Shown: positions 1 through 21,393 of the stretch, piece by piece
Position numbering within the stretch: position 1 is the stretch's first letter
Layout of the letters: every line of letters starts with the position of its first letter
Source of the DNA: a virus
Virus record (IMG/VR): IMGVR_UViG_3300027848_001467
Location: 1 to 21,393 of that record
Reading direction: 5' to 3' (one strand)
DNA: 21,393 nt
The notes under the pieces: model-generated
Databases searched by the model: none
The model's input: only the letters and a program-made list of their open reading frames with translations
What the model was told of the DNA's origin: nothing
Program-made: the position numbers and the translations under genes

Positions 1-393
1 GGTTATAAAGTCACAATCGGTGGGCAGGTCATGGCCGTGCCGAATGACCCGGAAAATGAGGATTACCAGCGGGTGCAAAAGGCGATTGCTGGCGGCATGG
101 AATTGACCGTGCCACCGGGGCCGACCGCTGCGCAATTGCGCGCGACAATGGACATAACACCCCTGCAAGGCATCCTTACCTTGGGCGAAGCACGGTGGGC
201 CGCCGTGCTGGCCTTCCGCGACGGCACAAACCCCGATCTGCCCCCCGCTTCGTGGGCGCAGAAAATCATCATCGACAGCGCCGAAAATTGGGAGCGCCTA
301 AGCGAAAACATGCAGTTCATAGGGTGGGTGTTGGGCTACGGCCCCGAAGAAATGGACGCCCTATTCATCGACGCGGCCAAGGTGACAGCGTGA
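1..393 (+). CDS. Small phage protein of the tail-region 3' end type (5' partial)
   Basis: The reading frame is open from base 1, and the residues before the first ATG (base 31) look like coding sequence: a VTIGGQV stretch runs into MAVPNDPEN. The gene therefore probably starts upstream of the window. If ATG 31 were used, the protein would have 120 residues, but AGG lies only about three bases before that ATG, which is poor Shine-Dalgarno spacing. The N-terminal D-P-x-N-x-x-Y-Q pattern, a central segment beginning ITPLQ, and a C-terminal ending in MDALFIDAAKV match a common layout of small phage proteins encoded just after tail or tail-fibre genes. The biochemical role of that group is not known to me. 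The TGA stop overlaps the GTG start of the next gene. The assignment rests on remembered family resemblance, not a search. Confidence 0.6.
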   Translation, partial: GYKVTIGGQVMAVPNDPENEDYQRVQKAIAGGMELTVPPGPTAAQLRATMDITPLQGILTLGEARWAAVLAFRDGTNPDLPPASWAQKIIIDSAENWERLSENMQFIGWVLGYGPEEMDALFIDAAKVTA

Positions 394-683
394 CAAACGG
401 CGTCGGACCCAAATGGTTTCCAAAGTTTACGCGGCGGGCGCTGACGCGCCTGTCGGCGTTGTTCTTCGATACCGCGTCTTGGGACCGGCACGACGAAGGC
501 TATCAGGCAGGCCGCCCCGCGCGTTCGGAGTGCGACCGCTTGTTTCTGGCCGCGATGCTGACGGACGGGTCGCAAGCCGGGCCTGTCTGGCGGATGCTAG
601 GGTGCAGCCTGCTTGCGTGGGGGTTCTGGCTGGCGGTGCGGTTTTTCGGCTGGACGGCGTATAAAAATAAAGGTGCAACATGA
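390..683 (+). CDS. DUF1353-like small membrane protein
   Basis: This 97-residue protein starts at GTG 390, which overlaps the preceding TGA. AAGGTGA at 379-385 is well placed as a ribosome binding site, and an ATG 195 bases further upstream would run through the previous gene, so GTG is preferred. Residues 34-56 carry H-D-x-x-Y (His34-Asp35, Tyr38), then R-x-E-x-D-R-L-F-x-x-A-M around Asp49. This is the pattern I associate with DUF1353 phage proteins. Residues about 69-86 are hydrophobic and aromatic, consistent with one membrane segment, followed by a short basic tail. It opens the lysis cassette and overlaps the holin candidate (ATGA at 680-683). Its role is unknown. The His-Asp pair resembles that of phospholipase A2-like folds, but this is only a suggestion. 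It is shorter than typical DUF1353 proteins at the N-terminus. Confidence 0.6.
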   Translation: MTNGVGPKWFPKFTRRALTRLSALFFDTASWDRHDEGYQAGRPARSECDRLFLAAMLTDGSQAGPVWRMLGCSLLAWGFWLAVRFFGWTAYKNKGAT

Positions 684-874
684 CCGAACCCGAAGCCATC
701 CTGGTCAAAGCCACCAACGTCGTCGCCCTCGGGGGCGTCGTGTCCCCGGTCTGGTTGCCGATGCTGGATACGGTAAGCCAGGTATCGGCCACGTTCATCC
801 CAATCCTGTCCGTCGTATGGTTGCTTCTGCAAATCTGGCGGTTTGTTTTCACCAAAAAGGGTCAACCCAAATGA
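680..874 (+). CDS. Putative holin
   Basis: This 64-residue protein starts at ATG 680, overlapping the previous stop as ATGA. It has two hydrophobic stretches, about residues 13-30 and 38-57, and a short basic C-terminus (FTKKGQPK). Small size, two likely transmembrane helices, a charged tail and a position directly before an endolysin gene are the usual marks of a class II type holin, which would permeabilise or depolarise the inner membrane at the time of lysis. Holins are too divergent for a family name from sequence alone. Because the endolysin appears to carry a SAR domain, this protein could act as a pinholin that depolarises the membrane instead of forming large holes. Its stop overlaps the endolysin start (ATGA at 871-874). 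Confidence 0.65.
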   Translation: MTEPEAILVKATNVVALGGVVSPVWLPMLDTVSQVSATFIPILSVVWLLLQIWRFVFTKKGQPK

Positions 875-1353
875 TAGGTTTTCGTCGCGCCACGTTCGGC
901 ACCGCGTCCGCGTTCGCGCTGGCGGCGGCAGTTTTTGTCGCCCCCCATGAAGGGCTGCGGACCCAAGCCTACCCGGACGCGCTGGCGAACAACCTGCCCA
1001 CGGTCTGCTACGGCGAAACACGCGGCGTCACCCTCACGGATACCTACACCAAACCGGAATGCGACGCCATGTTGGCCGTCGCCGTCCAAGACTTTCACGA
1101 CAAACTTGCGCGGTGTTTCCCTAAACTCCCCGACCAACCCCTTGGCGTCCGCGTCGCGCTGACCTCTTGGGTTTACAACGTCGGCCCCGGCGCAGCCTGC
1201 AAGTCCACGCTGGTCCGCCTCGCCAACCAAGGCAACCTCAAGGCGGCTTGCGACCAACTTCCGCGATGGAACCGCGCGTCCGGCTACGTCGTCCGGGGCC
1301 TGTCCAACCGCCGGGGCAAGGAGCGCGCCCTGTGTTTGGCCTCCCTCAAATGA
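871..1353 (+). CDS. SAR-type endolysin, GH24 lysozyme
   Basis: This 160-residue muramidase hydrolyses the glycan backbone of peptidoglycan. ATG 871 overlaps the holin stop; an upstream in-frame ATG would start inside the preceding genes and is rejected. Residues about 5-24 form a weakly hydrophobic Ala/Gly/Ser-rich segment after basic residues, typical of a signal-anchor-release domain exported by Sec and held inactive in the membrane. The catalytic pattern follows at once: Glu27, then Asp36 eight residues later, then Thr44 in the PTVCYG stretch. The Asp-Thr spacing is about two residues longer than in T4-type lysozymes (an NN insertion). The central W-x-Y-N-V-G-P-G motif and the C-terminal RRGKERALC region are also typical of GH24. 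Several cysteines may regulate activity through disulfide exchange. The spanin gene follows with another ATGA overlap. Confidence 0.9.
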   Translation: MIGFRRATFGTASAFALAAAVFVAPHEGLRTQAYPDALANNLPTVCYGETRGVTLTDTYTKPECDAMLAVAVQDFHDKLARCFPKLPDQPLGVRVALTSWVYNVGPGAACKSTLVRLANQGNLKAACDQLPRWNRASGYVVRGLSNRRGKERALCLASLK

Positions 1354-1613: not shown

Positions 1614-1758
1614 CGCACCGCCCTGCGAACGCCCGGTCCTGATCCCAGAGCGCCAGATTACAGACCAAGACATTGAAGTGTTTTGGGGCCGCGACCGGGC
1701 CGAACTCCTGGTCTGCGGCGACAAAGTGGAGGCCCTGTCCGGGCGGACGCCAAAATGA
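1528..1758 (+). CDS. Outer-membrane spanin lipoprotein, Rz1-like, nested in Rz
   Basis: This 76-residue protein starts at ATG 1528, inside the inner spanin gene in a different frame, and extends past it. Residues 1-20 are a signal peptide ending in a lipobox (LLTAC) with Cys21 as the lipidated residue, so the mature protein should be tethered to the inner leaflet of the outer membrane. The mature part carries a D-Q-D-I-x-x-F-W-x-x-D-R-x-x-L-x-x-C-G pattern, resembling LysC-type outer spanins of Gram-negative phages. It overlaps i-spanin over bases 1528-1613, and its TGA overlaps the terminase start (ATGA at 1755-1758). Translational coupling with the spanin gene is likely because its own ribosome binding site is weak. 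Confidence 0.85.
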   Translation: MRIWPVRNPLATLVVFLLTACGGSTKFADAPPCERPVLIPERQITDQDIEVFWGRDRAELLVCGDKVEALSGRTPK

Positions 1759-3344
1759 ACACCCAAACCAAAATCCTTGCACCCCAAGACCAGCGCCGCG
1801 CGGACGTGATCCGCAGGCTTTTGGCTGCGAAGGCGGCTGCAAATTCGATTTTGGAATACTCCCGCATAACCATGCCGGACCACTCCGACCCTTCCCCAAA
1901 CCCCAAGACCCGCTACCAGACGGGCCGCCACCACGAGTTGATCGCCCGAAAACTCCAAGACCTTGTGGACGGGCGCAGCCGCCGCGTGATCCTCAACCTT
2001 GGCCCTCGCCACGGTAAAACCCAGATCGCATCAAAGGACTTCATGGCATGGTTTTCAGCGAAGTTTCCCGAATTGTCGCTTATCTTTGGCACATACAACG
2101 AGACTTTTGCCGCCGACGTTGGCCGCGCAGTCCGCGACAAAATCCAATCCGCCGAACACCACCTGACCTTCCCCCTGCACAAACTCAAAGATGGTTCGGA
2201 AGCGGCGCAACGGTTGGAAACCACGCGCGGCGGGCAGCTTTCGTTTGTAGGGCGCGGGGGTACGATTACAGGCCGTGGAGGCCACGGCATCATCCTAGAC
2301 GACCCTATAAAAGACCGTAAGGAAGCGGATAGCAAACTGATCCGGGACCAACTGTGGTCGTGGTTCACGCAGGTTATCATGACCCGGCAAATGACCAGCG
2401 AAGCGTGGGTCATTTTGATCCAGACCCGTTGGCATGAAGACGATTTGGTGGGCCGCCTAACGGACCCCATGAACCCGTTTTACGATCCCGAAGAAGCCAA
2501 ACTTTGGGACGTGATCGACCTGCCCGCGCTAGCCTTTGACGACGGCACCCCTGACCCCCTCGGGCGCAAGCCCGGCGAAGCCCTATGGCCGGAACGCTTC
2601 CCGGTCCCGTTCCTTCTGGCCCAACAACGGCTGGACCCGCGCGGCTTCCAAGCCCTCTACCAAGGACGGCCAAGCGCCGGGGCCGGGAGTTTCTTTCTGG
2701 CCGAATGGCTGCAAACCTATCGGCCCGACGAACTGCCGAAGAACCTTCGCATTTACATCGCGTCCGACCACGCCGTGTCCACGCACCAAGCCCGCGACAA
2801 GACGGCGCTGGTCCCGGTGGGCGTGGACGAGAACGACAACATCTACATTCTGCCGGACGTATGGTGGCAGCAAGCCACGTCCGACGTTGTAACCGAAGCC
2901 ATGCTGAACCTGATGCGGGTCCACAAACCGATCTACTGGTGGGCCGAACGCGGCCACATTTCCAAGTCCATCGGCCCCTTCCTTCGCAAGCGGATGCAGG
3001 AAGAAAAGGTCTACGCCGCCATTATCGAAGTGACGCCGACCGCCGACAAGCAAACGCGCGCGCAGTCCATTCAGGGCCGCATGGCAATGGGGAAGGTTTT
3101 CTTCCCATCCTTTGCGACGTGGTGGCCGAACGCCCGCGACCAACTCCTGAAATTCCCCAACGCGACCCACGACGACTTTGTGGACGCGCTGGCATACATC
3201 GGCTTGGGCCTTGCGCACCAACTTTCCGCAGGCCCCACGTCGGCCAAATCCGCCCCCCGGACGGGAACTTTCCGGGCAATGTTTGAGCAAATTAGACAAC
3301 AAGAAGCCGCCGCGCGCCGTGCGCAGAACACTTCCGGTTGGTGA
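1755..3344 (+). CDS. terL: Terminase large subunit (TerL)
   Basis: This 529-residue DNA packaging motor has an ATPase and a nuclease domain. ATG 1755 overlaps the o-spanin stop; the frame is open further upstream but that part shadows the spanin gene. Walker A is GPRHGKT at residues 83-89. Walker B with its acidic pair is GIILDDPIKD at about 178-187. The coupling motif IQTRWHEDDL lies at 222-231. In the RNase H-like nuclease domain, Asp338 (YIASDHAVS), Glu398 (WWAERGHISKS) and Asp473/Asp474 with Asp477 (THDDFVDALAY) are the likely metal ligands. Length and motif order are normal for large terminases. It sits directly after the lysis cassette, as TerL does in T7-like phages. No small subunit gene is recognisable beside it. 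Confidence 0.95.
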   Translation: MNTQTKILAPQDQRRADVIRRLLAAKAAANSILEYSRITMPDHSDPSPNPKTRYQTGRHHELIARKLQDLVDGRSRRVILNLGPRHGKTQIASKDFMAWFSAKFPELSLIFGTYNETFAADVGRAVRDKIQSAEHHLTFPLHKLKDGSEAAQRLETTRGGQLSFVGRGGTITGRGGHGIILDDPIKDRKEADSKLIRDQLWSWFTQVIMTRQMTSEAWVILIQTRWHEDDLVGRLTDPMNPFYDPEEAKLWDVIDLPALAFDDGTPDPLGRKPGEALWPERFPVPFLLAQQRLDPRGFQALYQGRPSAGAGSFFLAEWLQTYRPDELPKNLRIYIASDHAVSTHQARDKTALVPVGVDENDNIYILPDVWWQQATSDVVTEAMLNLMRVHKPIYWWAERGHISKSIGPFLRKRMQEEKVYAAIIEVTPTADKQTRAQSIQGRMAMGKVFFPSFATWWPNARDQLLKFPNATHDDFVDALAYIGLGLAHQLSAGPTSAKSAPRTGTFRAMFEQIRQQEAAARRAQNTSGW

Positions 3345-3355
3345 GAGGATACCCC

Positions 3356-5551: not shown

Positions 5552-5570
5552 GCCTAACTTATTGACAACA

Positions 5571-5619: not shown

Positions 5620-5620
5620 T

Positions 5621-5690: not shown

Positions 5691-5700
5691 AAGGAACAAA

Positions 5701-6810
5701 ATGCCCAACGATCCAAACGGCGAAATTGAAGTCGTAGCCTCGCCAGCTACAGCCTCGGACGAAACGACCACCGCCTCGTCCAGCGGAACGGACGAACCCT
5801 CCACCGCCCCGTCCAGCGGACCGGAAGACGCCCAGACCGACGACCAACCGAAATCAATGGCCGACGCAATCGCGCAGGCTTTTGACGCGACGACGAAGCC
5901 CGAAGCGAAAGCCGAAGGCGACGAAACTGTCAGCGAAGACCTTTCGGGAACGTCCGACGACACGGCAGACGCCAAAGCCACCGGGGAACAGCCCGGTTCT
6001 GATGCGCCCAAAACCGAAGACACGGAAGCCGACCCCTCCAAAGAGGAACTGGCGGCCATGACGCCAAGCGCGCGAAATCGCGTCGGGCAACTTCTGACAC
6101 AGCGCAAAGGTCTTCGTGACGAAGTTACTGCTTTGCAACCTGACGCCACAAACTTCCGCGCTTTGCAGGGGTATATGGCGAAGAACCAAATCTCGGAACC
6201 AAACCTGATCGAACTCCTAGAGTTTGGCGGGGACTTGGCTTCCGGCGACCCCGCGCGATTGCAGCGTGTGGCCGACCGGATCATCCCTATTCTGCGCATG
6301 GCCCAAGAGGCCAATGGGCAGATCGTCCCACAAGACCTTCTCGGGCGCGTGGACAGCGGGGAAATGACCGAAGAAGTGGCACGGGACACCGCCCGCTTGC
6401 GTCACGAACGCAACCTGGCAACCCAACAGGCAGCACAAGCAACGGCCCAAGTGCAAACGAACGTGACGGCGCAAGCCCAAGCGTCCATGCACCAAGCCGT
6501 CGTGAACTGGCACACGCAGGCCGCCCAATCAGACCCGGACATGGACCTCAAAGTGGACGCTATGCGACGGACGGCGCAAGCCATCGTTGCCGAACGCGGA
6601 CAGCCGAAGACGCCTCAACAAGCCGTGGAGTATGCGAAAGCCGCATACGACGAAGCCACAGCCATGTTGCGTCGGATGCAGCCGCAGAAAGCCGCGACTA
6701 GGCCCACTCCGAACGGTCAAGCGTCCGTAAATCGCTCCGGCGTGAAGCCCGCCCCCACCAGTTTGCAGGATGCAATCGGACGGGCCTTCGACAACGCAAC
6801 ACGGGGCTAA
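5701..6810 (+). CDS. Capsid scaffolding protein
   Basis: This 369-residue protein starts at ATG 5701, preceded by AAGGA at 5691-5695. Residues 1-110 are acidic and Ser/Thr/Ala/Pro-rich and probably disordered. The middle is helical, with an Ala/Gln-rich segment after about residue 230 (RHERNLATQQAAQATAQ). The C-terminus turns basic (RPTPNGQASVNRSGVKPAP) and ends in a short amphipathic helix. This polarity, with a position between portal and major capsid genes, is typical of P22- and T7-type scaffolds, which bind the inner face of the coat through a basic C-terminal helical element and then leave the procapsid. A helix very similar to the last one occurs at residues 52-64. No protease domain is seen. 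The capsid gene follows after 15 bases. Confidence 0.85.
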   Translation: MPNDPNGEIEVVASPATASDETTTASSSGTDEPSTAPSSGPEDAQTDDQPKSMADAIAQAFDATTKPEAKAEGDETVSEDLSGTSDDTADAKATGEQPGSDAPKTEDTEADPSKEELAAMTPSARNRVGQLLTQRKGLRDEVTALQPDATNFRALQGYMAKNQISEPNLIELLEFGGDLASGDPARLQRVADRIIPILRMAQEANGQIVPQDLLGRVDSGEMTEEVARDTARLRHERNLATQQAAQATAQVQTNVTAQAQASMHQAVVNWHTQAAQSDPDMDLKVDAMRRTAQAIVAERGQPKTPQQAVEYAKAAYDEATAMLRRMQPQKAATRPTPNGQASVNRSGVKPAPTSLQDAIGRAFDNATRG

Positions 6811-6825
6811 GGACAGGGGTTTCCC

Positions 6826-7938
6826 ATGCCACTTTCGGCCAACCAAATCCAATTCATCGCGGACGCCGCGCTTGATTTTTACCTCAACAAAGACCCTGCC
6901 TTCAAGCAGACGGTCCAAGAACGCCCGCTTGTGGCGCTGATGGAGGGTAAAGCCAAGTCCTTCCCCGGCGGCAAAGGCAACATCGAAGTCCGGGTGAAAC
7001 CAGCCTTCGGCGCGGCAGGCATGAACGACGGCCTTAAAGGCTTCGATTACGACGACACCGTGAACTTCTACAACCCGGCAAACCTTGCGGTTCTCGCCTT
7101 CAAATGGCGTGAAATGCACTTGGGTATTTCGCTGACCCTGACCGAACTCAAGCACGACGGTATCTCGGTATCCGACAGCTTGAACTCGGCGTCCACGTCC
7201 AACCATGCCGGGCGCGACAAGACCGCGCTTATCAACATGTTTGAAGACAAACTGTCGGACATGGGTGAGCAATACGGTCGTTCGTCCAACTCCCTTTATT
7301 GGGGCGACGGCACGGCGGACGCCAAAGGCTTCCATGGTTTGCGGCACTTCCTTGTCCCGGACCCGTCCATCGGCACCATCGGCGGGAAAAACCGCGCCAC
7401 GGCGGACAACGCCTATCTGCGCAACCGCGCACGGACGGCGGCCTTTGGAACCCAAGTCGGCACGACCCCGGCCTTGGCCGCCCACGGCGGCGGCGCGATC
7501 ACGTCCAACCCGGCAAACGGCGGGACGTTGTGGCAGGTCTTGCAGGCCGAACAGCGCCAACTCCGGCGCTACGGAAGCCGCCCGGATACGTTCATGGCGG
7601 GGTCGGACTTCATTGGCGCGCTGGAAATCGAAATGCGGGCCAACGGGCACTATTCCGACAAGGGCTTCAAAGGTTCGCAAGACGGCGCTATCGGCCCAAT
7701 GTTGTTTGACGGGACGACTGTGCAGTATGACCCGACGTTGGACGACCTGGGGTTGTCGAAGCGCGGCTACTGGTTTGACTGCCGCGACATTTTCTTGATG
7801 AAAATGGAAGGTGAGTGGAAGAAGACCCATTCGCCCGCGCGCCCGGCAAACCAATTCGTGATGTATCGCTCGATCACCAACACCGGACAGGTGGTGGCGA
7901 AGAAGCTGAACGGCGGCTTGGTTATCGACATTAGCTAA
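6826..7938 (+). CDS. Major capsid protein, HK97-like fold
   Basis: This 370-residue protein starts at ATG 6826, with AGGGG at 6815-6819 as ribosome binding site. It lies directly after the scaffold gene. Its length suits an HK97-fold coat protein without a covalent scaffold domain. Features seen in such coats include an N-terminal helix (NQIQFIADAALDFYL), an extended loop-like strand region (GNIEVRVKPAFGAAGMNDG), a central long helix (RDKTALINMFEDKLSDMGEQYGRSSNSLYWGDG), the GLRHFLV segment, and a late P-domain part with RYGSRPDTFMAG. I do not recognise a narrower family. A perfect 12-base-pair hairpin follows the stop codon closely. Coat genes are usually the most highly expressed in the cluster, and the two hairpins bracket the scaffold-coat pair. 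Confidence 0.88.
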   Translation: MPLSANQIQFIADAALDFYLNKDPAFKQTVQERPLVALMEGKAKSFPGGKGNIEVRVKPAFGAAGMNDGLKGFDYDDTVNFYNPANLAVLAFKWREMHLGISLTLTELKHDGISVSDSLNSASTSNHAGRDKTALINMFEDKLSDMGEQYGRSSNSLYWGDGTADAKGFHGLRHFLVPDPSIGTIGGKNRATADNAYLRNRARTAAFGTQVGTTPALAAHGGGAITSNPANGGTLWQVLQAEQRQLRRYGSRPDTFMAGSDFIGALEIEMRANGHYSDKGFKGSQDGAIGPMLFDGTTVQYDPTLDDLGLSKRGYWFDCRDIFLMKMEGEWKKTHSPARPANQFVMYRSITNTGQVVAKKLNGGLVIDIS

Positions 7939-7941
7939 CCC

Positions 7942-7970: not shown

Positions 7971-7999
7971 CCTTTCTCCCCCACAAAAGGATCAACCCT

Positions 8000-8443: not shown

Positions 8444-8455
8444 AAGGAGACTGCC

Positions 8456-9174: not shown

Positions 9175-10623
9175 GTGCCGTATCTCCAAATCACCGACTT
9201 CGCCGCCGGGATCGACTTGCGCAAATCCCGCAACACCGCCCCGGCGGGAACGCTGCGGGCGTTGAAGAACGCCGTAATCACCGCCGGGGGTGAAGTCGAA
9301 AAGCGCAAAACCCTGACGACCATCGGGGCGTTGCCCGCCGGGCTGACACACGGCCTGTCATTCCTGAACAAACAGTTGGTGGTTTTCGGGCTATCTGACG
9401 CCGCCGCAGTAACGCACCTTCTTCCGCTGCACGTCACCTATCAAAAACTGGTCCCCGTCGCGGGAACGGCGATCTACCGCATTTTGAAAGCCGAAGTCTT
9501 CGCGGGTAAAATCTACGCCGTTGTCCAATTCACGGACGACAGTGTTGAACACTTCTACGATGGGGTGGCCGTGTCCGGCGTGGCCGGGGAAACCGTGCGG
9601 GCGCACAAGTCCAAACTCTTTGCCGCCGAAGGGGTCAACCTTCGGTTTTCGGCCATCCGGGACGCGGCGGACTGGACCGTGGGTGCGGGCAACGGCATCA
9701 TCGACGTGACGACCGAAGACACGGGCGAAACCGAACTGGTCGGGCTGGAAGAATACTTCGGCGCGCTGGCCGTCTTCGGGCGCACGTCCGTCCAAATCTG
9801 GAACATGGACCCGGACCCGGCACTGTCCCAGATCGGGCAAGTCTTGGGCAACACCGGATTGGTATCGCGCAACGCCGTGGCGCGCTTCGGGTCCGGGGAC
9901 GTTTTGTTTCTGGCGGACACGGGCGTCCGGTCTTTGCGGGCGCGGGACATCCAATCCGCCGCCGCAGTCAACGACGTGGGCGCACCTGTGGACAACCTGA
10001 TCGTGGCAAAGCGCGCGATCCTGACGGCTGCGGAAGCGGACAAGCTGACGGCGCTGGTGGACCCGCTGACGGGCCGGTTCTGGCTGGTCTGGGGAACCGA
10101 AGTCTTTGTTTTGACGGTCTTTCCAAACTCCAAAATCTCGGCGTGGTCGGTCTTCGACTTCGGCCTCCCCTTGGATTACGTCACGCGCGCGGGCAGCCGC
10201 GTCGCGGTCCGGTCCGGGGACGAACTGTTTGTTTACGGGTCCATTGCCGACCCGCTGCAAAACCCGTTCGACCCAAACACCCCCATCGGGATTGCCGCCG
10301 AAGTGTACGACGCAACGCCTGTGGAGTTTGTGACCCCCTTCATGGACGCCGGACGCCCTGGCACAGTGAAGGTTTGGTCGGGGCTGGACGTGTCTTGCAC
10401 CGGGACATGGGAAGTCTATGTCTGTCCGTCGCCGCCGCGCGACCTAGACGCGGAACCTATCTGGACCAAAATCGCGGTCGTGGACCAAGCAACTTGGGGC
10501 CTTGACACAATCCCGGTGGACATGGAGGGCAACCACATTGCCGTCCGCATGGTGTCTGTGGGGGCCACGTCCGCCACCATCGCGTCCATCGCGCTACATC
10601 ACAACTTGGGGGCTGACGGATAA
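9175..10623 (+). CDS. Tail nozzle / packaged DNA stabilisation protein, P22 gp10-like
   Basis: This 482-residue protein starts at GTG 9175, preceded by AAAGGAGG at 9162-9169. Its length is close to P22 gp10 (472 residues). The sequence is almost entirely beta-rich with repeated blade-like segments such as YGAL-type turns, LVVFGLSD, KIYAVVQFTDD, LAVFGRTSVQIWNMD, DVLFLADTGVRSL, RFWLVWGTEVFVL and RVAVRSGDELFVYG, which suggest a propeller. The FLADTGVRSL segment is one I associate with gp10-like or nozzle proteins that close the portal channel after packaging. The stop codon TAA shares one base with the next start. No enzymatic motif is visible. The main alternative is a general tubular tail protein of T7 gp12 type, which has an equivalent role. 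Confidence 0.65.
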   Translation: MPYLQITDFAAGIDLRKSRNTAPAGTLRALKNAVITAGGEVEKRKTLTTIGALPAGLTHGLSFLNKQLVVFGLSDAAAVTHLLPLHVTYQKLVPVAGTAIYRILKAEVFAGKIYAVVQFTDDSVEHFYDGVAVSGVAGETVRAHKSKLFAAEGVNLRFSAIRDAADWTVGAGNGIIDVTTEDTGETELVGLEEYFGALAVFGRTSVQIWNMDPDPALSQIGQVLGNTGLVSRNAVARFGSGDVLFLADTGVRSLRARDIQSAAAVNDVGAPVDNLIVAKRAILTAAEADKLTALVDPLTGRFWLVWGTEVFVLTVFPNSKISAWSVFDFGLPLDYVTRAGSRVAVRSGDELFVYGSIADPLQNPFDPNTPIGIAAEVYDATPVEFVTPFMDAGRPGTVKVWSGLDVSCTGTWEVYVCPSPPRDLDAEPIWTKIAVVDQATWGLDTIPVDMEGNHIAVRMVSVGATSATIASIALHHNLGADG

Positions 10624-11120
10624 TGCCACGCATCGACCTTCGGGCGGAACCGTCCTACGCGGACATGCTGCACATTGCGCAGAACTTACGCGAACGTGAC
10701 CGGGAAGAAATCTTCGCCACCCGCTACGGCGAAAACCCCGCCGACGTGGCGCGGGACGCAACCATGACTGGCGCGTTCCGTTGGGGCGCGTATCTGGACG
10801 GCGAACCTGTGGCCGCCCTCGGCGCTTTCCCCCGTTGGCCGAATGTCTGGACGCTGTGGGCTTACGGGACCGACGATTGGGACAAAGCGGTCCTGACCGT
10901 CACCAAACACGTCAAGCGGTTCATGCTCCCGGCGCTCTACAATGCCGGGGCAATCCGCGCGGACGCCATGTCTTTGGCCTCGCACACGGACGCGCGCAGG
11001 TGGTTGGGGTTGCTCGGGGGTGTTCCCGAAAAACGACTGGACAATTACGGCAAAAACGGGCAAACCTTTGTCAACTATGTCTGGACGCGCAAAACTGCAA
11101 AAGAGGCAATGGACCTCTGA
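10623..11120 (+). CDS. T7 gp13-like protein with GNAT-like fold
   Basis: This 165-residue protein starts at ATG 10623, sharing one base with the preceding stop. Its layout follows the T7 gp13-type family (DUF2833-like): an early helix with REEIFATRYGENP, a strand with GAYLDGEPVAALGAFPRWPNVWTLWAYGTDDW, a helix with VTKHVKRFMLPALYNAGAIRADAMSLASHTDARRWLGLLGGV, and a C-terminal strand with QTFVNYVWTR. The fold is like GNAT acetyltransferases, but I do not see the clear acetyl-CoA pyrophosphate loop (R/Q-x-x-G-x-G/A), so catalysis is doubtful. In T7, gp13 is required for formation of infectious particles and internal virion assembly. Position just before internal virion protein genes agrees with this. 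Confidence 0.75.
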   Translation: MPRIDLRAEPSYADMLHIAQNLRERDREEIFATRYGENPADVARDATMTGAFRWGAYLDGEPVAALGAFPRWPNVWTLWAYGTDDWDKAVLTVTKHVKRFMLPALYNAGAIRADAMSLASHTDARRWLGLLGGVPEKRLDNYGKNGQTFVNYVWTRKTAKEAMDL

Positions 11121-12538: not shown

Positions 12539-13966
12539 GTGACCACGAAAAACATCAACTCCGACGGCATCGCGCAGTTTTTCCAAGCCATCCTCGGCGG
12601 GGGCAAAGGCAACACGTCCGCACTGATCGAAGCCGACTTGGCCCGCCGCAAAGGCTTGGGGCTGGACGCCGCCGCAGCGAACACCGCAGCGGACACCGCG
12701 TTCACGACCGGCCCCAAAACCGAAAACATGAACGCCCAGACGGCGAGTGAAGTGGCCCGCGCCCTCGGACTTAACGCGGACGCGGCGTTCACCGCCGGTC
12801 CTAAAACCGAAAACATGGACGCCCAGACGGCAAGCGAACTGGCCCGCCGCCTCGGCATCGACGCGGACACCGCGTACACCGCCGGTCCTCAAACCAATCT
12901 GACCAACGCCCAAACCGGGGCGGAAACCGCTTTGGCGGGCAGCCGGAACGCGGACACGCGCCAGACAGACACCGAAACGAGTGTGATCGCGGCAGAGCAA
13001 GAGGCCCAACTGGCGATTGCGGAAATCATGGCATCGCCGGAGTTTAACTCCCCGGACCCCACGGTGTATGGCCCCGCGCGGCAGAAGATCGCGGCAATCG
13101 CCAACCTATACGCGGGAGGCTCGACCCGTGAGAATATCGGGGGCGTTCTCGCAGGGGACGCCTACGGCAACGCCGACCGGGGCGACGCCCAAGGCTTTTC
13201 GTCCGCCCTTCTGGGGACCGGGACCGTTGCGAACTCCGGGGCCACGCCGCAGGGAACTTATGTCCAACAAATGCACGAAGCCATTGGGGGCGACGTAACG
13301 GCGAAAGCCGAAGCCGACCGGCTTGCCATGACCATCGCCGGGAACAAAGCCAACAACACCGCAAACAACGACGCGGCATTGGCGCGGGAAATGCTGAACT
13401 TCACCCAACCCATCCAGCCCGGCACCCGATACGACCAACCCGGCGGCGGACGCCAACCCTTGTCCGTGTCCACAGCCACCGTCAACGGTTTTGCCAAAGA
13501 CATTCAAAAGCGCATCGAAGCCCAATACCCCGGCGCGGTTTTGCCCCCGGAATTGCTTTCCAGCTTGGCCGACGAAGCGGCGCTGGAATACTCCACCACG
13601 CGCAATTCCAGCTTGGCAATCGACAAAGTGATGAAAAGCCTTTCCACAGAAACGGAAGACCTAAGCTGGTTGCCCACCGGGGACACCACCACCATCACGC
13701 AGCCCCTTCCCGGAATGGGGGGCGCAGGCGCACCGGCACCCGCACAGGCACCCGCCGCGTCCAGCGGGGCCAACGCGGTCGCGGGGGCTATCGCAGGCGC
13801 ACCGCCAGCACCGGCTCCGGCGCAGGCACCCGCCCCCATTCCGCAAGTCGCGCCCACAGTCGCCAACGCCAACTCCAAAATCCCCGCAGGCGCGGTGATG
13901 GGCAAAGACGTGAACGGTGTGGAAATCTACCAAGACCCGACGACAGGCAAGTGGTTCTATCCATGA
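12539..13966 (+). CDS. Putative internal virion protein with 29-residue repeats
   Basis: This 475-residue protein starts at GTG 12539, one base after the previous stop; AGGGG near 12524 is a distant ribosome binding site. The first 50 residues are helical and Ala-rich. Three consecutive 29-residue repeats follow (residues 52-138; see repeat entry). The middle (about 140-350) contains helical parts such as EQEAQLAIAEIMASPEF and NNDAALAREMLNF, and residues 395-445 are an Ala/Pro-rich linker. The protein ends with a compact aromatic stretch, GVEIYQDPTTGKWFYP. I do not recognise a family. Size and location between ejection-like proteins and a virion peptidase suggest an internal virion component equivalent in place to P22 gp16/gp20 or T7 gp15. 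The stop overlaps the next start (ATGA). Confidence 0.6.
   Translation: MTTKNINSDGIAQFFQAILGGGKGNTSALIEADLARRKGLGLDAAAANTAADTAFTTGPKTENMNAQTASEVARALGLNADAAFTAGPKTENMDAQTASELARRLGIDADTAYTAGPQTNLTNAQTGAETALAGSRNADTRQTDTETSVIAAEQEAQLAIAEIMASPEFNSPDPTVYGPARQKIAAIANLYAGGSTRENIGGVLAGDAYGNADRGDAQGFSSALLGTGTVANSGATPQGTYVQQMHEAIGGDVTAKAEADRLAMTIAGNKANNTANNDAALAREMLNFTQPIQPGTRYDQPGGGRQPLSVSTATVNGFAKDIQKRIEAQYPGAVLPPELLSSLADEAALEYSTTRNSSLAIDKVMKSLSTETEDLSWLPTGDTTTITQPLPGMGGAGAPAPAQAPAASSGANAVAGAIAGAPPAPAPAQAPAPIPQVAPTVANANSKIPAGAVMGKDVNGVEIYQDPTTGKWFYP
12692..12952 (+). repeat. Three tandem 87-base (29-residue) repeats
   Basis: Units are 12692-12778, 12779-12865 and 12866-12952. At protein level each begins D-[T/A]-A-[F/Y]-T-x-G-P-[K/Q]-T, then N-A-Q-T or D-A-Q-T at positions 14-17. 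Units 1 and 2 are nearly identical (differences mainly M-N/M-D, V/L, A/R and L-N/I-D), including A-x-x-L-G at the end. Unit 3 keeps only the first half well. The units look like stacked helix-turn elements; a weaker LGLDAAAANTAA segment just before may be a degenerate fourth. Confidence 0.8.
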
Positions 13967-14598
13967 GTGTTTTGCTCCAATACCTCGCCGGGGGGAAAGA
14001 CCCAAGCCACGTCAACAATCTGCAAGAGGATTTTGCCGGGCGGCTGAACCAGATGATCGCGGCGTCCGAAGGGCGGATCACGATCAATTCCGGCTATCGG
14101 TCGGAAGAACGCCAAGCAGAATTGTTTGCGGCAGCGGTCCAGAAGTACGGGTCCGAAGCCGCCGCCCGCAAATGGGTCGCCCCTCCCGGCAAGTCCAACC
14201 ACAACCACGGGCTTGCGGCGGACCTCGGGTACTCCGGCGACGGCGAACAATGGGCGCACAAAAACGCGGCAAACTTCGGCCTCAACTTTCGCATGTCGCA
14301 TGAACCCTGGCACATCGAAATGCTCAACGGCCAACCAACTGCCGTCGCGGACGCCACCGGGCAGCCCTTGGACGCGGCAGGCGCTCCGTCGGACCGGGGG
14401 CCGCCTCCACCACCCGCGTCCTTCGCGGAAGCCCTCTTTGGCGGGCAGAGTGGCGGAAACGCACAAACCGCCACTCCTATGCAGGCCGCGCCACGCCCGG
14501 ACCTCCCCGGCAACATGAGGGGACAAGACCCTTCCAAGATGGCGGCGCTCCTAGAACAACTCCAATCGGCTACGTCGAAGGCCAACATTTTTGGGTGA
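13963..14598 (+). CDS. M15-family zinc D,D-carboxypeptidase-like peptidoglycan hydrolase
   Basis: This 211-residue protein starts at ATG 13963 (ATGA overlap with the previous gene). It carries all M15 (VanY/VanX-type) marks: INSGYRS at 41-47, then S-x-H-x-x-G-x-A-x-D at 78-87 giving zinc ligands His80 and Asp87, and HEPWHIE at 113-119 with Glu114 as catalytic base and His117 as third ligand. The enzymatic domain ends near residue 125. The remaining 85 residues are a Pro/Gly/Ala-rich linker and a short terminal helix (DPSKMAALLEQLQSATSKANIFG). A DLPGNM at 180-185 resembles the motif repeated in the next protein. Because the lysis endolysin is encoded elsewhere and this gene lies among ejection proteins, it is probably carried in the virion to cut peptide bridges during DNA entry. 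A second lysis enzyme is the alternative. Confidence 0.85.
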   Translation: MSVLLQYLAGGKDPSHVNNLQEDFAGRLNQMIAASEGRITINSGYRSEERQAELFAAAVQKYGSEAAARKWVAPPGKSNHNHGLAADLGYSGDGEQWAHKNAANFGLNFRMSHEPWHIEMLNGQPTAVADATGQPLDAAGAPSDRGPPPPPASFAEALFGGQSGGNAQTATPMQAAPRPDLPGNMRGQDPSKMAALLEQLQSATSKANIFG

Positions 14599-14601
14599 TA
14601 T

Positions 14602-17600
14602 ATGAACTTTTACGACCAACTGATGTTGCGCAAAAACCTTGGCCTCGCCCCTGCACAACCCGCGCCGCCCGCCCCCGTGTCCGGCGGCGAAGTCCCCACG
14701 AACATGGTCGCGCCACGGGAAGTCCCCGCCAATATGCTCCCGGACATGTCCAGCCTCGGCGGGGATTTGCGCGCCGGGGGTTTCCAACTCGCCAACGCGC
14801 TGGAAATGGGTAAGTTGGGCGCGACCTATGCGCGCGGGAACCTCAACTCCGCGCAGGCCACCGGCCCCATGGACATGGCGGCCCGGATTGACGAAAACTT
14901 GGCCGAACTGCAAAACCGTTGGGAAACTTCGCTGGACCCCGCAGAGCAAGCCCTGCTTGCGCAGGACATGGCCGGGCTACAACAAGAGCGCGACGGGTAT
15001 CTCGCCATTGGGCAGACCCAAGAGTTTCAGGACAGCGCGACGGCGAACCGCCAAGTCGCCTCGGACATGCAAACCCGCATCGCCATGGAGCATATCCCGG
15101 CGATGATCGCCAACGCGCAAGCCGCAAACCGCATCCCAATGAACCCCGCCGCCGAAGCCGCCGGACGGGAAACTGGCGACGGCGGGTGGGCCGATACCAA
15201 AAACTTCGCAAGCCAACTAGCCGAAGACCCGTGGGGGGTTTCCCGCAACGCAGTCGCGCGCAGCATCCCGACCATGCTCCCCGGTGTTGCCGCAGCCGTC
15301 GGCGGCCAGTTTCTTGGCGGACCGCTCGCAGCGGGCGCGGCCTCTGGTGTTGTCAGTGGCGCGACGGACGCAATGGCCGAAGCCTCTGGCGACCTCGCCA
15401 ACGCACTTATCGAAGCGGGCGTGGACGCCAACAGCCCCGACAGCATCAAACAGTTTTTTGCGCAAAACCCGGACGTGTTGGCGGACGCCTACGCCGACGG
15501 TGCGCGCCACGGGGGGATCGTCGGCACCATCAACGCCCTAACCGCAGGCATTGGGGGTAAGATCGTTGCCGGAAGCCTCGGCAAATCTCTTGGCACGAAA
15601 GTCGCGGCTATCGGCGGGGCCACCGCCTTGAACACCGCCGGGGACGGAACGGGGGAAGCCTTGGCGGGCCTCGCCAACGACGGCAAAGTCTCCATGCCCG
15701 AAGTCCTGAACGAAATGCTTGGTGGTTTGGCGATGGGAGGCCCCCAAGCGGCGGGCCAGATGGGCGCGGAAGCCCTCCGCACCCTCCCGAAGAACCCCGG
15801 CAAGACGTTTGCGCGGGAACTGGACCAAGCCTCGCGCGACGCGCCCGCGACCGAACGCGCCTTCCGGGGCGGCGGCGGCATCATGGAACCCGGCTCCGAA
15901 GTCCCCGCCGACATGCTCCCCCCGGCACTGGCCCCGGCCCCTGTTGCGCAGGCGGCACCCGTGCGGCCTCCGGCTCCGGTCGCACCCCCCGTGCCAGTCA
16001 CGGCTCAAGACGACGAAGAAATCGCGCCCACGTCCGGGCAGGAAGTCCCGGCGGAAATGCTCCCGCCCACACAGGCCCCGGCGTCCGTGCCGGAACCTGT
16101 CGCGTCCACGTCCACGTCCACGCCCGCGCCCACGCCGGTCCCGGCGGAAATGCTGCCTGAACCGCTGGACGCGGACGAAGCGGACGTGGAAGTCGCAACC
16201 CCGACTGCACAAGTCGCAACCCCGACTGCACAAGTCGCAACCCCGGCGGACCCTGCCCGGCGCTCCAAGATTTACACGCCCGAGAACGAAGAAGTCGAAG
16301 TGGACACGCTGGTTATGGAAGCGGACGACCTCGTGTCCTCCGACAACCCGGCCTACCCCCAAGAATTGCAGCCCCGCGACCGCAACCGTGCGTCTTCGGA
16401 AATCCAGATCGAAGGCATCGCAAACAAACCCACCCCCTCCCGGCTGGACCAATCCAACGAAACGGACCGGGGGTCGCCCATTATCGGCTCCGACAGCAAC
16501 GTCGTGGAAAGCGGGAACGGTCGCGTCATGGGTCTGCGCCGGGCGTACCAGCGCGGCACCGCGAACGAATACCGGACCTATGTGGAAGGGAAATACCCCG
16601 AAGCCGTCGGCATGAAGAACCCGGTGATCGTGCGCCGCCGCGTGACCGCCGTGAACGGGCAGGACTTCACGTCCGCGTCCAACGTGTCGGCCACCATGGA
16701 AATGTCGCCCACCGAAAACGCCAAGAACGACGCCCGCCAGATAGACGAAAGCGTCATGGGCTTGTACCGTGGCGGCGATCTTGCCAGCGCCCCGAACCGG
16801 GATATGGTCCGGGCGATCATCGGCAAACTGCCGAAGTCCGCGCAAAACGCCCTCCTGACAAAAGACGGCGGGTTCAGCATTGAAGGCCAGCGCCGCGTCG
16901 GGGCCGCGATGTTCACCCGCGCCTATGGGGAAAGCAACCTCCTGACCCGCCTGACGGAAAACCCCGACGACGATATTCGGTCCGTGACCAACGCCCTCGC
17001 AGAAGCCGCCCCGGCCATGGCAGGGCTGCGGCTGGAAATCGAAGGCAAAAGGGTTTCCTCGGACGTGGACTTGTCGGCGGACCTCTTGGCCGCAACGCGG
17101 ATTTTGGCGGACATGCGCCAGCGCGGGCAGAACCTCAACGACTATCGCGCCCAAACGGACGCCTTCGCGGACCCTAACTCGGAAACCACCGAAGCGATTT
17201 TGGACGCCTTCTATAACGAAACCGGGACGCGCATGGTTTCCAAGAAAGCCATGACAGACTTCTTGAACGGCTACGCCGAACGTGCCAAACAGCAACGGAC
17301 GGACCAAGCGACCCTGCCGGGCGTGGCCCCCGTACCCCTCAAATCGGCAAAGGAACTCATAAATGACACCCGTGAAGCCAACCGAAAAGACGACAACGAC
17401 AGCCAACCCGCCCTCTTTGAAAGCGCGTCTGATGGGCGAAGCAATGGTGGAGGCCGGAGAGAAAAACAACGAACCGTCGATGGTCAAAGCCGGGAAGAAA
17501 CTTCTCGGGCAGACCAGCTAAAAGACGAAGGCACCCGCGCGCCGAAGGGGGGTTTCACGCCCACCATTCGGGAAGCGTCTTTCACGTCCGGGGCTTCGCC

Positions 17601-20600
17601 CTTCGAGCAGGCATGGCGCGACGCAGGCCACGACCCGGACGCGGCCAACCTGAAAAACCCCAGGGAACAGGTCAACATTCTGACCCGGCTGATGGAAAAG
17701 ACCTTCGGCCTCAAAACCACACGCAACCCCCTGAACCCCGGCAAGGCTATCGACGCCAAAAATCAAATGCTGGACGCCTACCGGAACGTGCGGCACATGC
17801 TGGCAACCCTTGGCCTGCCCTTGCAGGGGCTTTCCTTGAACGGCACCCTGTCCATGTCCTTGGAAGGATATAAGGGCCGCTACCTCGGAATGTATGACCC
17901 GAACACCACCACGATCCACATGCCGGGGCGGTCCAACTCCTTCGCCCACGAATGGGGCCATGCGCTTGACCACTTCTTGCGGAACACCCTGACGCCGCAA
18001 GCGGAAGCGCACCTCCTGTCCAAAGTTGCGCGGCGTGAGGGCATCGACCCCAACGAAAACATTCAAGCCGCCTACGTCAGCCTGATCCAGCGCATGTTCT
18101 TTGATGATACGGCTTTGGCCGTCCGCATGATGGCTTTGGAAGTGGACGCGGCAAAGGTGGACAAGAACGGCAGCCCGACAAAGGGCGCGCTGAACGCGAC
18201 CGAACAACTCAAGAAGCTGGCCGCAGGCAACACCCAACTGCGGATCGCCCCCTCGGCCTACCGCACAGACAGCGCGAACTACTCCCCCGCGCAAGCCGGG
18301 TACTACGCATCTGTTCACGAAATGTTCGCCCGCGCCTTTGAGGCTTATGTCGGACACAAGATGGAACAGTCCGGGGCCGGGTCCAACGCCTTCGTGACCA
18401 AGGGTGACGAAGCCTATCTGTCGGACGCGGACGCGCGCCTTGCCATGACTTTCCCGAAGGCCGACGAACGCTTGGCGATCTTCATGGCCTTTGACGACGT
18501 GTTCCACCACCTCCGCGTCAGTGGGATTTTGGGGATCGACCCGGCGACCGCCCCCGGCCCGGATACGGACGTTATGGCCCCGGCCCATTGGCACAAGTTG
18601 GGGTTGCAACAGGCTTTGGCTGCGGACGACGGCTTCATGGCCGGGATGAAACGCGAACTGACGGCGCACAAGAACAACCTGTCCAAACTTGTCCTGTCCC
18701 CGATTGCGACCCTCAAATCCTCGGTGGCCGCCTTCGGGGCGGAAACCGGACTGGCGAACGCCGACCCCATGGCGGCGCTCTCGCGGGTTTGGGATTACAC
18801 GCGCGGCATCGTGAACTCCACACGCGGCACGTCCAAACTTATCATCGCCCGCGCCCCGAAGGACGCACGGGGCTTTTTGCAGTACCTCTTGGACGGCATC
18901 GCCACGGACCCCGGCACTGGCCGGGAAAGTGCGTCCGTCGTGGAGGAAATCTCCGAACGCCGCACCCTGTCCGTGGGGGCTGAAATAACCGCCATGTTGA
19001 AAGCCACGGGGCTGGACCTGAACCCTCTGACCCGTGGGGGTTTGCTCAAGAAGTCCTCGGAAAATATCCTCAAGCTGTTGTACGACGAAGCCTCCGTCCC
19101 GAACGCCACACCGGGGGAGCGCAAGGTCGCGTCCGGGCTGCGCCGCATCATGGACACGCAGTATCTTAGCGCGGTCGAAGCCGGGCTGGAAATCGGTTAT
19201 GTCGAAAACAAAGGCTATCTGCCGCGCATCTTGGACCGGACAGCCGTGAACCTCAACCCGCAGACGTTCCGCGAACGGGCGGCCAAGCTGTACGAAATCC
19301 ATTTCGACAACGAAACGGACGGCATGTCCGCGCAAGACCTTATCAACCTGGCAGGGGCTATCTCCGCGCGCGTCGCGCCGGGGACCAACGCCAACAACGG
19401 GGCGTATTCCGCGCAAGTCAAAGCCTATCGCGCTGCGATCAAAGCCTACAACGAAGTTTTGGCGGACCCGAACGCCACTCGGGCGGACAAAGCCCAAGCA
19501 AAAGCCGACATGACCGACGCGCGGAAAGAACTTTCGGAAGTGGTGCGCCCAGACTACGGCACGACCTCGGCGGAAAACTGGTTGCGCCGGACGCAGACCG
19601 GCGGCGGCGTGTCTTTTGACAGCTTGGCCCCGGACGCGGACTTCAAAGCCAAGCGGTCGTTGCCGCCCGAAGCCGAAGAAATCATGGGGGATATGTATCT
19701 GGACGACCCGCTGGACTTGGTTATGGGCTACGTCCGGGACACTACGTCGCGGACCGCCTTCCAAGACCACTTCGGCGTGGAGAAAAAAGACACGGACAGC
19801 CTCGACAAAATCTTGGGCCGCGAAGCGATCAAGGACGCGATCCGGGCGAACCCCCGGAAGTATGACCCAAAGACGCCCGCCGGGCGTTTGGCGATCATGC
19901 GCGACCTTGCGGACCCGGCGAAAGACAATATCCGGGCGATTGCCTTGGAAGAAGCCCGTTTGGCGGGGGCGAACCCGGACGACCTCTTGAACATGAACAA
20001 CCAAATCGCCAACATCATGGGGACTTCCCCCTTCGCCAAGGTGTCGCGCGCCACGTCCGCGATCACGGGCGCGGTTGTCGTTTACGGGGCGGGGTCTTTG
20101 CTGCCGCGCGCCGCGTGGACTTCCCTCGCAGAACCTATGACGTTCTACCTCAAGACCGGCGACTTCGCGGCCACGTCGAAAATGCTTGGGGCCTACATGC
20201 GCGAAGCGATCCGCAGCGCCAAGTCCACCAAAGAACTGTCGGCAATCGCGGACATGGTGGGGATCGTGTCGTCGCCCTTGCACGACATTATCATGATGAA
20301 CCGGGTGACGGACGGCGGCGACGGGCGCGGCGTCGGGGCCGTTCTCATGCAGCGGTTCTTCCGGGCAAACCTCCTGACGCAACTCACCAACGGTCAGCGC
20401 CGGGCGACGTTTTACGGGTCGTTCTTCATGATGCAGGGCCTCGCCAATACGATCAGCGCCAACGCGACCACCCCGAAGGAACGGGCGCGGCAGGAAATCG
20501 CGCGCGGCGACCTCCGGGACGCGGGCGTGTCCAACGCCCAAATGGACGCCTTCGTGACGTGGCTGAACGCCCAAGACGGCTTCCCGGACATGGCGACCAT

Positions 20601-21393
20601 GTTGACCAAAGAAGGCAAACTGTTTGCGCAGACGGGCGCGCGCCTGGTGGATCAGATTATCCAGAACCCGCGTCGGGCAGACAAGTCGGCGGCGGCCATG
20701 CACCCCGTAGGGCGGCTGGTGTTCGGCCTCTTGTCGTTCATCTGGGCCTTCACCCGGAACGTAATCACCGCCAACATCAACCGGGGCAAGCGGGTCTATG
20801 CCGCGAACGTGGACGCCGGGGTCGGCAAAACGGGCGCAGCCCTTGAAGCCTCCGGGGTGTTGGCGAACCGTTTGGCCGTGGGCTTTGCGGGCGTGGTCAC
20901 GGCGCAGGCGATTGTCGGCGTGTTCCGCGCCATGATCCTTGACAACGCCCAATGGCAGAAGCACGGCCCCGAAGAAGACGACGACCGCAAGAAGTGGCTG
21001 TTTTGGCTGGCCGTGTCGCGGTCCGGGATTTGGGGGGCCACCGATCCGGTCATTCAGGCCATGACAGGGCTGCGGTACGAGCGCGATCTTTCAAACCTCG
21101 GGGTCGGCCCGGCCATTGGGTCCGCGCTCTCGCACACCGCCAATATGTATTACGGTTCCCCGTTTGGGCCGCGCAACTCCCCGAACAACGACAACGCCGA
21201 ACACACCGCTGTAAAGTCGGCTTACCGAATGTTCGGTGCGCCCCTCTTGGCTGCGGGCTTGGCGTTCGTTCCGGCGGGGACGCGGGTAGGGGCTGCGGTC
21301 CGCGCTGGCGCGCTAATGGCTGGCACGTCCAATTCGGCGGCGGCCACCGTGGCGGACCAATTCTTTACGAAGACTTCAAAGGGGGTCCAGTGA
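14602..21393 (+). CDS. Giant polyvalent virion protein (ddrB-ParB and zincin domains)
   Basis: This 2263-residue protein ends exactly at the window end with TGA. Start ATG 14602 is three bases after the M15 gene. Order of parts: residues 14-50 Pro-rich linker with two VPxNM motifs; 75-200 charged helices; 222-254 and 306-345 Gly/Ala-rich hydrophobic segments; 425-550 low-complexity linker with three more VPAxM motifs; about 553-905 a ddrB-like ParB-superfamily domain (NPAYPQELQPRDRNR at 582-596, VESGNGRV at 635-642); about 985-1310 a large polyvalent protein-associated, zincin-like domain with HEWGH at 1116-1120 and a second HEMFARAFE at 1239-1247 that can give the third ligand; then about 950 mostly helical residues, with hydrophobic segments near 2034-2055, 2091-2113 and 2131-2150. 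Such polyvalent proteins are known from phages and conjugative elements and are thought to be injected with the DNA. It takes the genomic place of the T7 gp15/gp16 ejection proteins. Confidence 0.85.
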   Translation: MNFYDQLMLRKNLGLAPAQPAPPAPVSGGEVPTNMVAPREVPANMLPDMSSLGGDLRAGGFQLANALEMGKLGATYARGNLNSAQATGPMDMAARIDENLAELQNRWETSLDPAEQALLAQDMAGLQQERDGYLAIGQTQEFQDSATANRQVASDMQTRIAMEHIPAMIANAQAANRIPMNPAAEAAGRETGDGGWADTKNFASQLAEDPWGVSRNAVARSIPTMLPGVAAAVGGQFLGGPLAAGAASGVVSGATDAMAEASGDLANALIEAGVDANSPDSIKQFFAQNPDVLADAYADGARHGGIVGTINALTAGIGGKIVAGSLGKSLGTKVAAIGGATALNTAGDGTGEALAGLANDGKVSMPEVLNEMLGGLAMGGPQAAGQMGAEALRTLPKNPGKTFARELDQASRDAPATERAFRGGGGIMEPGSEVPADMLPPALAPAPVAQAAPVRPPAPVAPPVPVTAQDDEEIAPTSGQEVPAEMLPPTQAPASVPEPVASTSTSTPAPTPVPAEMLPEPLDADEADVEVATPTAQVATPTAQVATPADPARRSKIYTPENEEVEVDTLVMEADDLVSSDNPAYPQELQPRDRNRASSEIQIEGIANKPTPSRLDQSNETDRGSPIIGSDSNVVESGNGRVMGLRRAYQRGTANEYRTYVEGKYPEAVGMKNPVIVRRRVTAVNGQDFTSASNVSATMEMSPTENAKNDARQIDESVMGLYRGGDLASAPNRDMVRAIIGKLPKSAQNALLTKDGGFSIEGQRRVGAAMFTRAYGESNLLTRLTENPDDDIRSVTNALAEAAPAMAGLRLEIEGKRVSSDVDLSADLLAATRILADMRQRGQNLNDYRAQTDAFADPNSETTEAILDAFYNETGTRMVSKKAMTDFLNGYAERAKQQRTDQATLPGVAPVPLKSAKELINDTREANRKDDNDSQPALFESASDGRSNGGGRREKQRTVDGQSREETSRADQLKDEGTRAPKGGFTPTIREASFTSGASPFEQAWRDAGHDPDAANLKNPREQVNILTRLMEKTFGLKTTRNPLNPGKAIDAKNQMLDAYRNVRHMLATLGLPLQGLSLNGTLSMSLEGYKGRYLGMYDPNTTTIHMPGRSNSFAHEWGHALDHFLRNTLTPQAEAHLLSKVARREGIDPNENIQAAYVSLIQRMFFDDTALAVRMMALEVDAAKVDKNGSPTKGALNATEQLKKLAAGNTQLRIAPSAYRTDSANYSPAQAGYYASVHEMFARAFEAYVGHKMEQSGAGSNAFVTKGDEAYLSDADARLAMTFPKADERLAIFMAFDDVFHHLRVSGILGIDPATAPGPDTDVMAPAHWHKLGLQQALAADDGFMAGMKRELTAHKNNLSKLVLSPIATLKSSVAAFGAETGLANADPMAALSRVWDYTRGIVNSTRGTSKLIIARAPKDARGFLQYLLDGIATDPGTGRESASVVEEISERRTLSVGAEITAMLKATGLDLNPLTRGGLLKKSSENILKLLYDEASVPNATPGERKVASGLRRIMDTQYLSAVEAGLEIGYVENKGYLPRILDRTAVNLNPQTFRERAAKLYEIHFDNETDGMSAQDLINLAGAISARVAPGTNANNGAYSAQVKAYRAAIKAYNEVLADPNATRADKAQAKADMTDARKELSEVVRPDYGTTSAENWLRRTQTGGGVSFDSLAPDADFKAKRSLPPEAEEIMGDMYLDDPLDLVMGYVRDTTSRTAFQDHFGVEKKDTDSLDKILGREAIKDAIRANPRKYDPKTPAGRLAIMRDLADPAKDNIRAIALEEARLAGANPDDLLNMNNQIANIMGTSPFAKVSRATSAITGAVVVYGAGSLLPRAAWTSLAEPMTFYLKTGDFAATSKMLGAYMREAIRSAKSTKELSAIADMVGIVSSPLHDIIMMNRVTDGGDGRGVGAVLMQRFFRANLLTQLTNGQRRATFYGSFFMMQGLANTISANATTPKERARQEIARGDLRDAGVSNAQMDAFVTWLNAQDGFPDMATMLTKEGKLFAQTGARLVDQIIQNPRRADKSAAAMHPVGRLVFGLLSFIWAFTRNVITANINRGKRVYAANVDAGVGKTGAALEASGVLANRLAVGFAGVVTAQAIVGVFRAMILDNAQWQKHGPEEDDDRKKWLFWLAVSRSGIWGATDPVIQAMTGLRYERDLSNLGVGPAIGSALSHTANMYYGSPFGPRNSPNNDNAEHTAVKSAYRMFGAPLLAAGLAFVPAGTRVGAAVRAGALMAGTSNSAAATVADQFFTKTSKGVQ
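14689..16155 (+). repeat. Dispersed V-P-[A/T]-[N/D/E]-M motif, five copies
   Basis: Seven-residue copies lie at 14689-14709 (EVPTNMV), 14719-14739 (EVPANML), 15898-15918 (EVPADML), 16042-16062 (EVPAEML) and 16135-16155 (PVPAEML), residues 30-36, 40-46, 433-439, 481-487 and 512-518 of the giant protein. Four are followed by Pro. All sit in Pro/Ala-rich linkers, and codon choice is similar (GAAGTCCC start in four), so they probably share descent. Confidence 0.8.
16192..16245 (+). repeat. 21-base tandem repeat, about 2.6 copies
   Basis: Two identical 21-base units occupy 16192-16212 and 16213-16233, and the first 12 bases of a third follow at 16234-16245. They encode V-A-T-P-T-A-Q repeated in the linker just before the ParB-like domain. 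Exact identity of the units suggests recent slippage; a short ACGTCC run (STSTST) lies about 80 bases upstream. Confidence 0.9.

Follow-up and report, generated by a model that had tools for sequence, protein, structure and literature searches.

Gene content of the window

The stretch of DNA analyzed here, which we call the window, is the complete IMG/VR record IMGVR_UViG_3300027848_001467 (21,393 bp), yet it is a linear 21.4-kb genome fragment. It is almost wholly coding, and its predicted products mark it as a fragment of a podovirus-like genome, with the following features:

880..1353, + strand: phage lysozyme (endolysin); PF00959, 1.2e-33; phrog_7
1755..3344, + strand: terminase large subunit; phrog_38, 3e-99; PF03237/PF17289
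3353..5551, + strand: portal protein (start codon unsure); phrog_12082
5701..6810, + strand: scaffold-like acidic protein, assigned from its location between the portal and capsid genes
6826..7938, + strand: major capsid protein; phrog_9953, 3.5e-30
10623..11120, + strand: internal virion protein/acetyltransferase-like; phrog_308, 9.5e-13
13951..14598, + strand: VanY-type D,D-carboxypeptidase; PF02557, 1e-13
14602..21393, + strand: giant polyvalent protein with ddrB-ParB and LPD1 domains, at the record end; PF18763, 3.9e-31; PF18796, 1.4e-13

Profile searches with the scaffold-like protein returned no family match. The gene at 10623..11120 is syntenic with the annotated acetyltransferases of phages Mae-Yong1326-1 and RHph_N65, and the VanY-type carboxypeptidase is probably a virion lysin. 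The portal protein, which served as the query behind the family tree discussed below, is 84-85% identical to its counterparts in two related loci (L001 and L002) and 40% identical to that of Rhizobium phage RHph_N65.

Loss of GANTC and of other restriction sites in the window

The first-pass annotation of this DNA had claimed, from the letters alone, that GANTC is wholly absent, and an exact search of both strands indeed found none. Dinucleotide-preserving shuffles (n = 100) contain a mean of 67.96 sites (standard deviation, 8.86). The protein-preserving nulls, run over 17 mechanically called open reading frames of which a few have unsure start codons, are more demanding: codon shuffles with the proteins fixed gave a mean of 35.9 and a minimum of 20 (n = 1,000), with 35.5 and 22 in a second run (n = 200), and synonymous shuffling that left the codon-junction dinucleotides intact as well gave 31.8 and 21 (n = 200). 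Thus, 32 to 36 sites are expected from the encoded proteins, and an artifact of codon bias is rejected by both kinds of protein-preserving null. The count of GATC, previously estimated at 60 to 70, is 67, which is normal against 73.5 in the codon shuffle and 64.8 in the codon-junction shuffle.

The route by which GANTC was removed is synonymous. There are 240 dipeptide positions able to encode the site, none of which forces it, and it is missing in every codon phase where the null generates it. The effect is most readily seen at serine codons, as had also been pointed out from the sequence: serine following aspartate or glutamate is encoded by AGC 22 times, by AGT 3 times, and never by TCN (AGY, 25/25), while at other positions TCN predominates (317 TCN and 65 AGY; AGY, 65/382 or 17%; Fisher P = 2e-18). 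TCN cannot be converted to AGY by a single synonymous step, and the pattern hence appears to fit selection over a long period. Selection, the cause proposed at the outset, is the only reasonable one.

The idea that GANTC stands alone, on the other hand, was not borne out, since the window lacks most hexamer restriction sites just as completely. Fifty-one of the 64 hexamer palindromes are missing from the coding sequence (50 from the full sequence), as against about 13 to 14 expected by chance, and altogether the hexamer palindromes occur 119 times where 388 occurrences would be expected, with the survivors chiefly being CGCGCG, GCGCGC, TGCGCA, CCATGG, and TCATGA. When the palindromes are divided using the list of REBASE enzymes in Biopython, those with a known enzyme are at 0.19 of expectation (70 observed, 360 expected), whereas those without one, a small group dominated by CGCGCG, are at 0.90 (53 observed, 59 expected). 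The same division holds for palindromes with a three-base gap (1 observed and 17 expected with a known enzyme; 395 and 377 without). Of the 113 palindromic REBASE sites expected five or more times, 27 are absent, and some asymmetric sites, such as GAGACC, CGTCTC, and CTGAAG, are also missing. The four-base sites GATC, CCGG, CGCG, and GCGC are not avoided in the window. Because palindromes lacking an enzyme are near expectation while those with a known enzyme are depleted, this is a signature of restriction rather than of palindromes generally; avoidance of all palindromes is rejected, with the enzyme-less and most of the gapped ones at expectation. The window-wide pattern is therefore restriction site avoidance, a known phenomenon, of which GANTC is only the largest item. 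A separate observation concerns TCGNCGA, which occurs 0 times against 7.8 expected and has no enzyme in the same list; it is a candidate for an uncharacterized specificity or for a chance absence among many words.

GANTC in related loci and in other phages

Searches with the portal protein recovered 91 related loci, among them one Rhizobium phage, one phage reported from Microcystis, and contigs from assemblies of Devosia, Nitratireductor, Bosea, and Pseudovibrio. The nearest prophage host is Devosia, with a portal only 53% identical to that of the window. Expectations for these relatives come from a Markov formula rather than from codon shuffles, and the two agree for GANTC in the window (35.9 and 35.5). 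On the portal tree of 90 tips, a quick tree with several long branches, GANTC loss is clade-structured and takes only six changes. In the clade of the window, GANTC is below 0.3 of expectation in 29 of 31 representatives, a prevalence taken from phylogenetic grouping only (one other depleted group was picked by its GANTC state). Near-full-length relatives of 47.5, 44.0, 43.5, 45.5, and 43.4 kb have 0, 1, 0, 0, and 3 sites against 85, 75, 58, 72, and 74 expected, respectively. GATC is not avoided in the GANTC-depleted relatives. A tyrosine integrase is encoded by 16 of the 24 long viral relatives, and strong site avoidance coexists here with what appears to be a temperate lifestyle.

Three sets of relatives merit separate mention. 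Microcystis phage Mae-Yong1326-1 (L009; OP028995.1; 72% GC) has a portal within the clade of the window and a single GANTC against 45 expected. The cyanobacterial host reported for it is doubtful, and its true host could plausibly be an Alphaproteobacterium present in that culture; the word “axenic” is missing from the text of the paper on this phage. In the loci L077 to L085 (41-44% GC), GANTC is normal, CGCG occurs once against 50 expected, and many hexamers are avoided, and their host range is probably different. In L068, GGCGCC alone stands out as missing (0 observed, 19 expected) with the remaining hexamers near normal, which looks like the footprint of one single system.

Given the wider purge in the window, GANTC could be one of many orthodox type II restriction-modification (R-M) targets, read by a HinfI-type enzyme with its own methyltransferase, with CcrM being irrelevant. 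R-M avoidance by phages is established (PMC6286503), and across the 31 clade representatives, AGGCCT, CTCGAG, CTGCAG, and GGATCC are avoided alongside GANTC, the first three matching GANTC itself in both the strength and the breadth of avoidance. The clade-wide values for these three (the StuI, XhoI, and PstI sites) are 0.04 to 0.08 of expectation, which suggests that they point to the commonest R-M systems in the hosts. However, over 56 relatives, GANTC loss and hexamer avoidance show no correlation (rho = 0.13, P = 0.34; descriptive, as the rows are related), and the two dissociate in both directions. GANTC is nearly lost from RHph_N65 (4 observed, 107 expected), the Bosea prophage locus (3 and 41), and the Nitratireductor prophage locus (6 and 48, with all six sites confined to the initial 6.2 kb of this 22-kb locus), where hexamers stand at 0.75 to 0.91 of expectation; RHph_N65 even retains its PstI (20 observed, 21 expected) and XhoI (26 and 18) sites. 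In the opposite case, L044 and L064 keep GANTC at 0.98 of expectation, and their hexamers are down to 0.22 to 0.28. The absence of correlation together with these dissociations indicates that GANTC answers to a selective factor of its own, and the 29 of 31 prevalence suggests that this factor is host lineage-wide. HinfI originates from Haemophilus, and the gammaproteobacterial phages tested show no GANTC loss. Hence, while orthodox R-M is a possible explanation of the GANTC loss, we consider it a fairly unlikely one.

Among named phages, GANTC is lost from Caulobacter phage Cd1 (GU393987; 0 observed, 66 expected), in which hexamer sites are at 0.20 of expectation, from Rhodobacter phage RcTitan (1 and 90), and from Pelagibacter phage HTVC019P (6 and 67). 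Cd1 resembles the window in combining zero GANTC with depleted hexamers but is a T7-like Autographivirus and, thus, belongs to another phage lineage. In HTVC019P (L115; KC465901.1), GATC is also absent, with 0 sites against 95 expected. GANTC is normal in T7, N4, LUZ24, and PRD1 and not strongly depleted in the Alphaproteobacterial phages SIO1 (0.48), 7-7-1 (0.65), and phiCbK (0.76), with 50 kb each of phiCbK, N4, and 7-7-1 having been read. As the latter three Alphaproteobacterial phages keep 0.48 to 0.76 of their sites, a CcrM-positive host is not enough by itself to bring about the loss.

Some Alphaproteobacterial phages encode their own GANTC methyltransferase (PMC7139368, PMC5537653), which is an alternative way out for a phage. 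Such mimicry of CcrM gained no support in the family studied here: none of 31 records from relatives and comparators has a PF01555 domain, and none of 17 records has a PF02086 domain, although divergent versions could be missed and the window is a fragment.

Host CcrM and the proposed cost of a GANTC site

The Alphaproteobacteria with CcrM invoked by the first-pass annotation turned out to be the known hosts of the window's family. It had further suggested looking for a CcrM homolog in both host and phage; the host side of this held, with a RAMA-type CcrM and GcrA in all six Alphaproteobacterial host assemblies, and the phage side did not, as described above. GANTC as the target of these CcrM proteins is taken from the known family. 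In the three hosts whose CcrM loci were inspected, a MutY-like gene adjoins, and no restriction gene was recognized beside CcrM in these loci, where some neighbors matched no family. The sole non-Alphaproteobacterial bin, a Phycisphaerae metagenome-assembled genome, has neither CcrM nor GcrA, and GANTC is near normal in its phage contig (L087; 28 observed, 35 expected). It is the only negative case, and the contig may be misbinned or the bin mixed.

The host chromosomes themselves are mildly poor in GANTC, at 0.61 to 0.71 of expectation in Bosea, Devosia, and Nitratireductor and 0.35 in Pseudovibrio, which is what might be said for codon bias, base composition, or amelioration to the host as the source of its absence from the window. 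Yet the phages lie far below their hosts, and the depletion in prophages far exceeds that in the host chromosomes. These values reject amelioration, and with no protein-preserving shuffle falling below 20 sites, we see next to no chance that any of the three yields the absence.

Another parallel is offered by Dam, whose GATC site is avoided in phiX174, T7, and N4 (McClelland 1984; Deschavanne and Radman 1991; both as cited in PMC5014478). We likewise find only six GATC sites in T7 and one each in N4 and PRD1, all of which grow in Dam-positive hosts, and cleavage by MutH is the cause proposed in the literature. By analogy, a MutH-like mismatch repair nuclease could nick unmethylated GANTC. As in the Dam case, the site lost belongs to an orphan regulatory methyltransferase of the host; the difference is that here the site is GANTC, the enzyme is CcrM, and the hosts lack MutH. 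The MutH family is absent from all six host assemblies, and among the control genomes, only Escherichia coli has it. The MutH explanation is therefore not transferable from the Dam case, and we regard it as very improbable.

Alternatively, the cost of GANTC might be regulatory and involve no cleavage: GcrA bound at methylated sites could misdirect RNA polymerase, or the timing of phage replication could be upset by hemimethylation. The hosts carry both CcrM and GcrA, and GcrA is known from the literature to read methylated GANTC at promoters. Effects at promoters, however, are not expected to remove the site from throughout the coding sequence and from every codon phase, and the host chromosomes of three genera tolerate 0.61 to 0.71 of the expected sites. 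We accordingly consider this account quite unlikely. The coding-wide removal to zero, alongside restriction sites, argues instead for a per-site cost such as cutting, and restriction is a better explanation than regulation because the genome has purged restriction sites as a class. Of the two mechanisms put forward in the first-pass annotation, it is thus restriction that gained support, from the class-wide purge, and regulation that lost it, from the even removal across coding sequence.

Taking these findings together, we favor, with modest confidence, the proposal that each GANTC is costly in CcrM-positive hosts, most likely via the cutting of unmethylated copies. The family of the window phage infects Alphaproteobacteria in which the orphan CcrM would methylate the GANTC sites of the host, and we infer that the window phage's own host is likewise a CcrM-positive Alphaproteobacterium. 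Incoming or newly replicated phage DNA would be un- or half-methylated at GANTC, with fast-replicating phage DNA presumably being undermethylated. If the cost per site were large enough, synonymous mutation could have purged every GANTC. That cost would most likely be cleavage by GANTC-specific restriction endonucleases: a CcrM-positive cell might tolerate such a nuclease without a partner methyltransferase, with CcrM protecting the chromosome, and the CcrM marks would be what spares the host. The GANTC purge would then come on top of the broader removal of type II sites from this genome. It is conceivable, if unlikely, that the agent is an undescribed defense, common in CcrM-positive Alphaproteobacteria, that cuts or blocks GANTC-unmethylated DNA with the CcrM mark as the self-label. 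If this were true, the cell cycle methyltransferase CcrM would also serve as the modifying partner in a split R-M system, which would explain why GANTC loss tracks the host lineage and not the ordinary load of R-M sites.

GANTC depletion has been published for pelagiphages (Seong et al. 2022, PMC9516812), which, like the present family, are Alphaproteobacterial phages with a clade-structured loss and a host group that methylates with CcrM. The window's phage family differs from them, and its known hosts are mostly Rhizobiales; further, the loss is complete in the 21 kb of the window and near complete in its 43- to 47-kb relatives, and it is shown here to be independent of hexamer avoidance. 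R-M site avoidance has been described both in phages (Rusinov et al. 2018, PMC6286503) and in plasmids (Shaw et al. 2023, PMC10359461), and the window conforms in having orthodox type II palindromes removed and most ungapped 4-bp sites kept. What sets it apart is the breadth of the hexamer purge (51 of 64) and that many of its relatives encode an integrase, whereas Rusinov et al. found near-complete elimination mainly in nontemperate phages. GANTC depletion, R-M avoidance, and Dam site avoidance are thus already known; what is added is that avoiding GANTC proves to be a trait distinct from the avoidance of ordinary R-M sites.

The sites that a phage avoids record, much as fossils do, the defenses encountered in its past. 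In this record, GANTC separates cleanly from the other sites and seems to go with the host lineage; the old question of why phages lose the recognition sites of Dam, CcrM, and other orphan methyltransferases thereby becomes testable. A GANTC-free contig might also serve as a marker of a CcrM-positive Alphaproteobacterial host.
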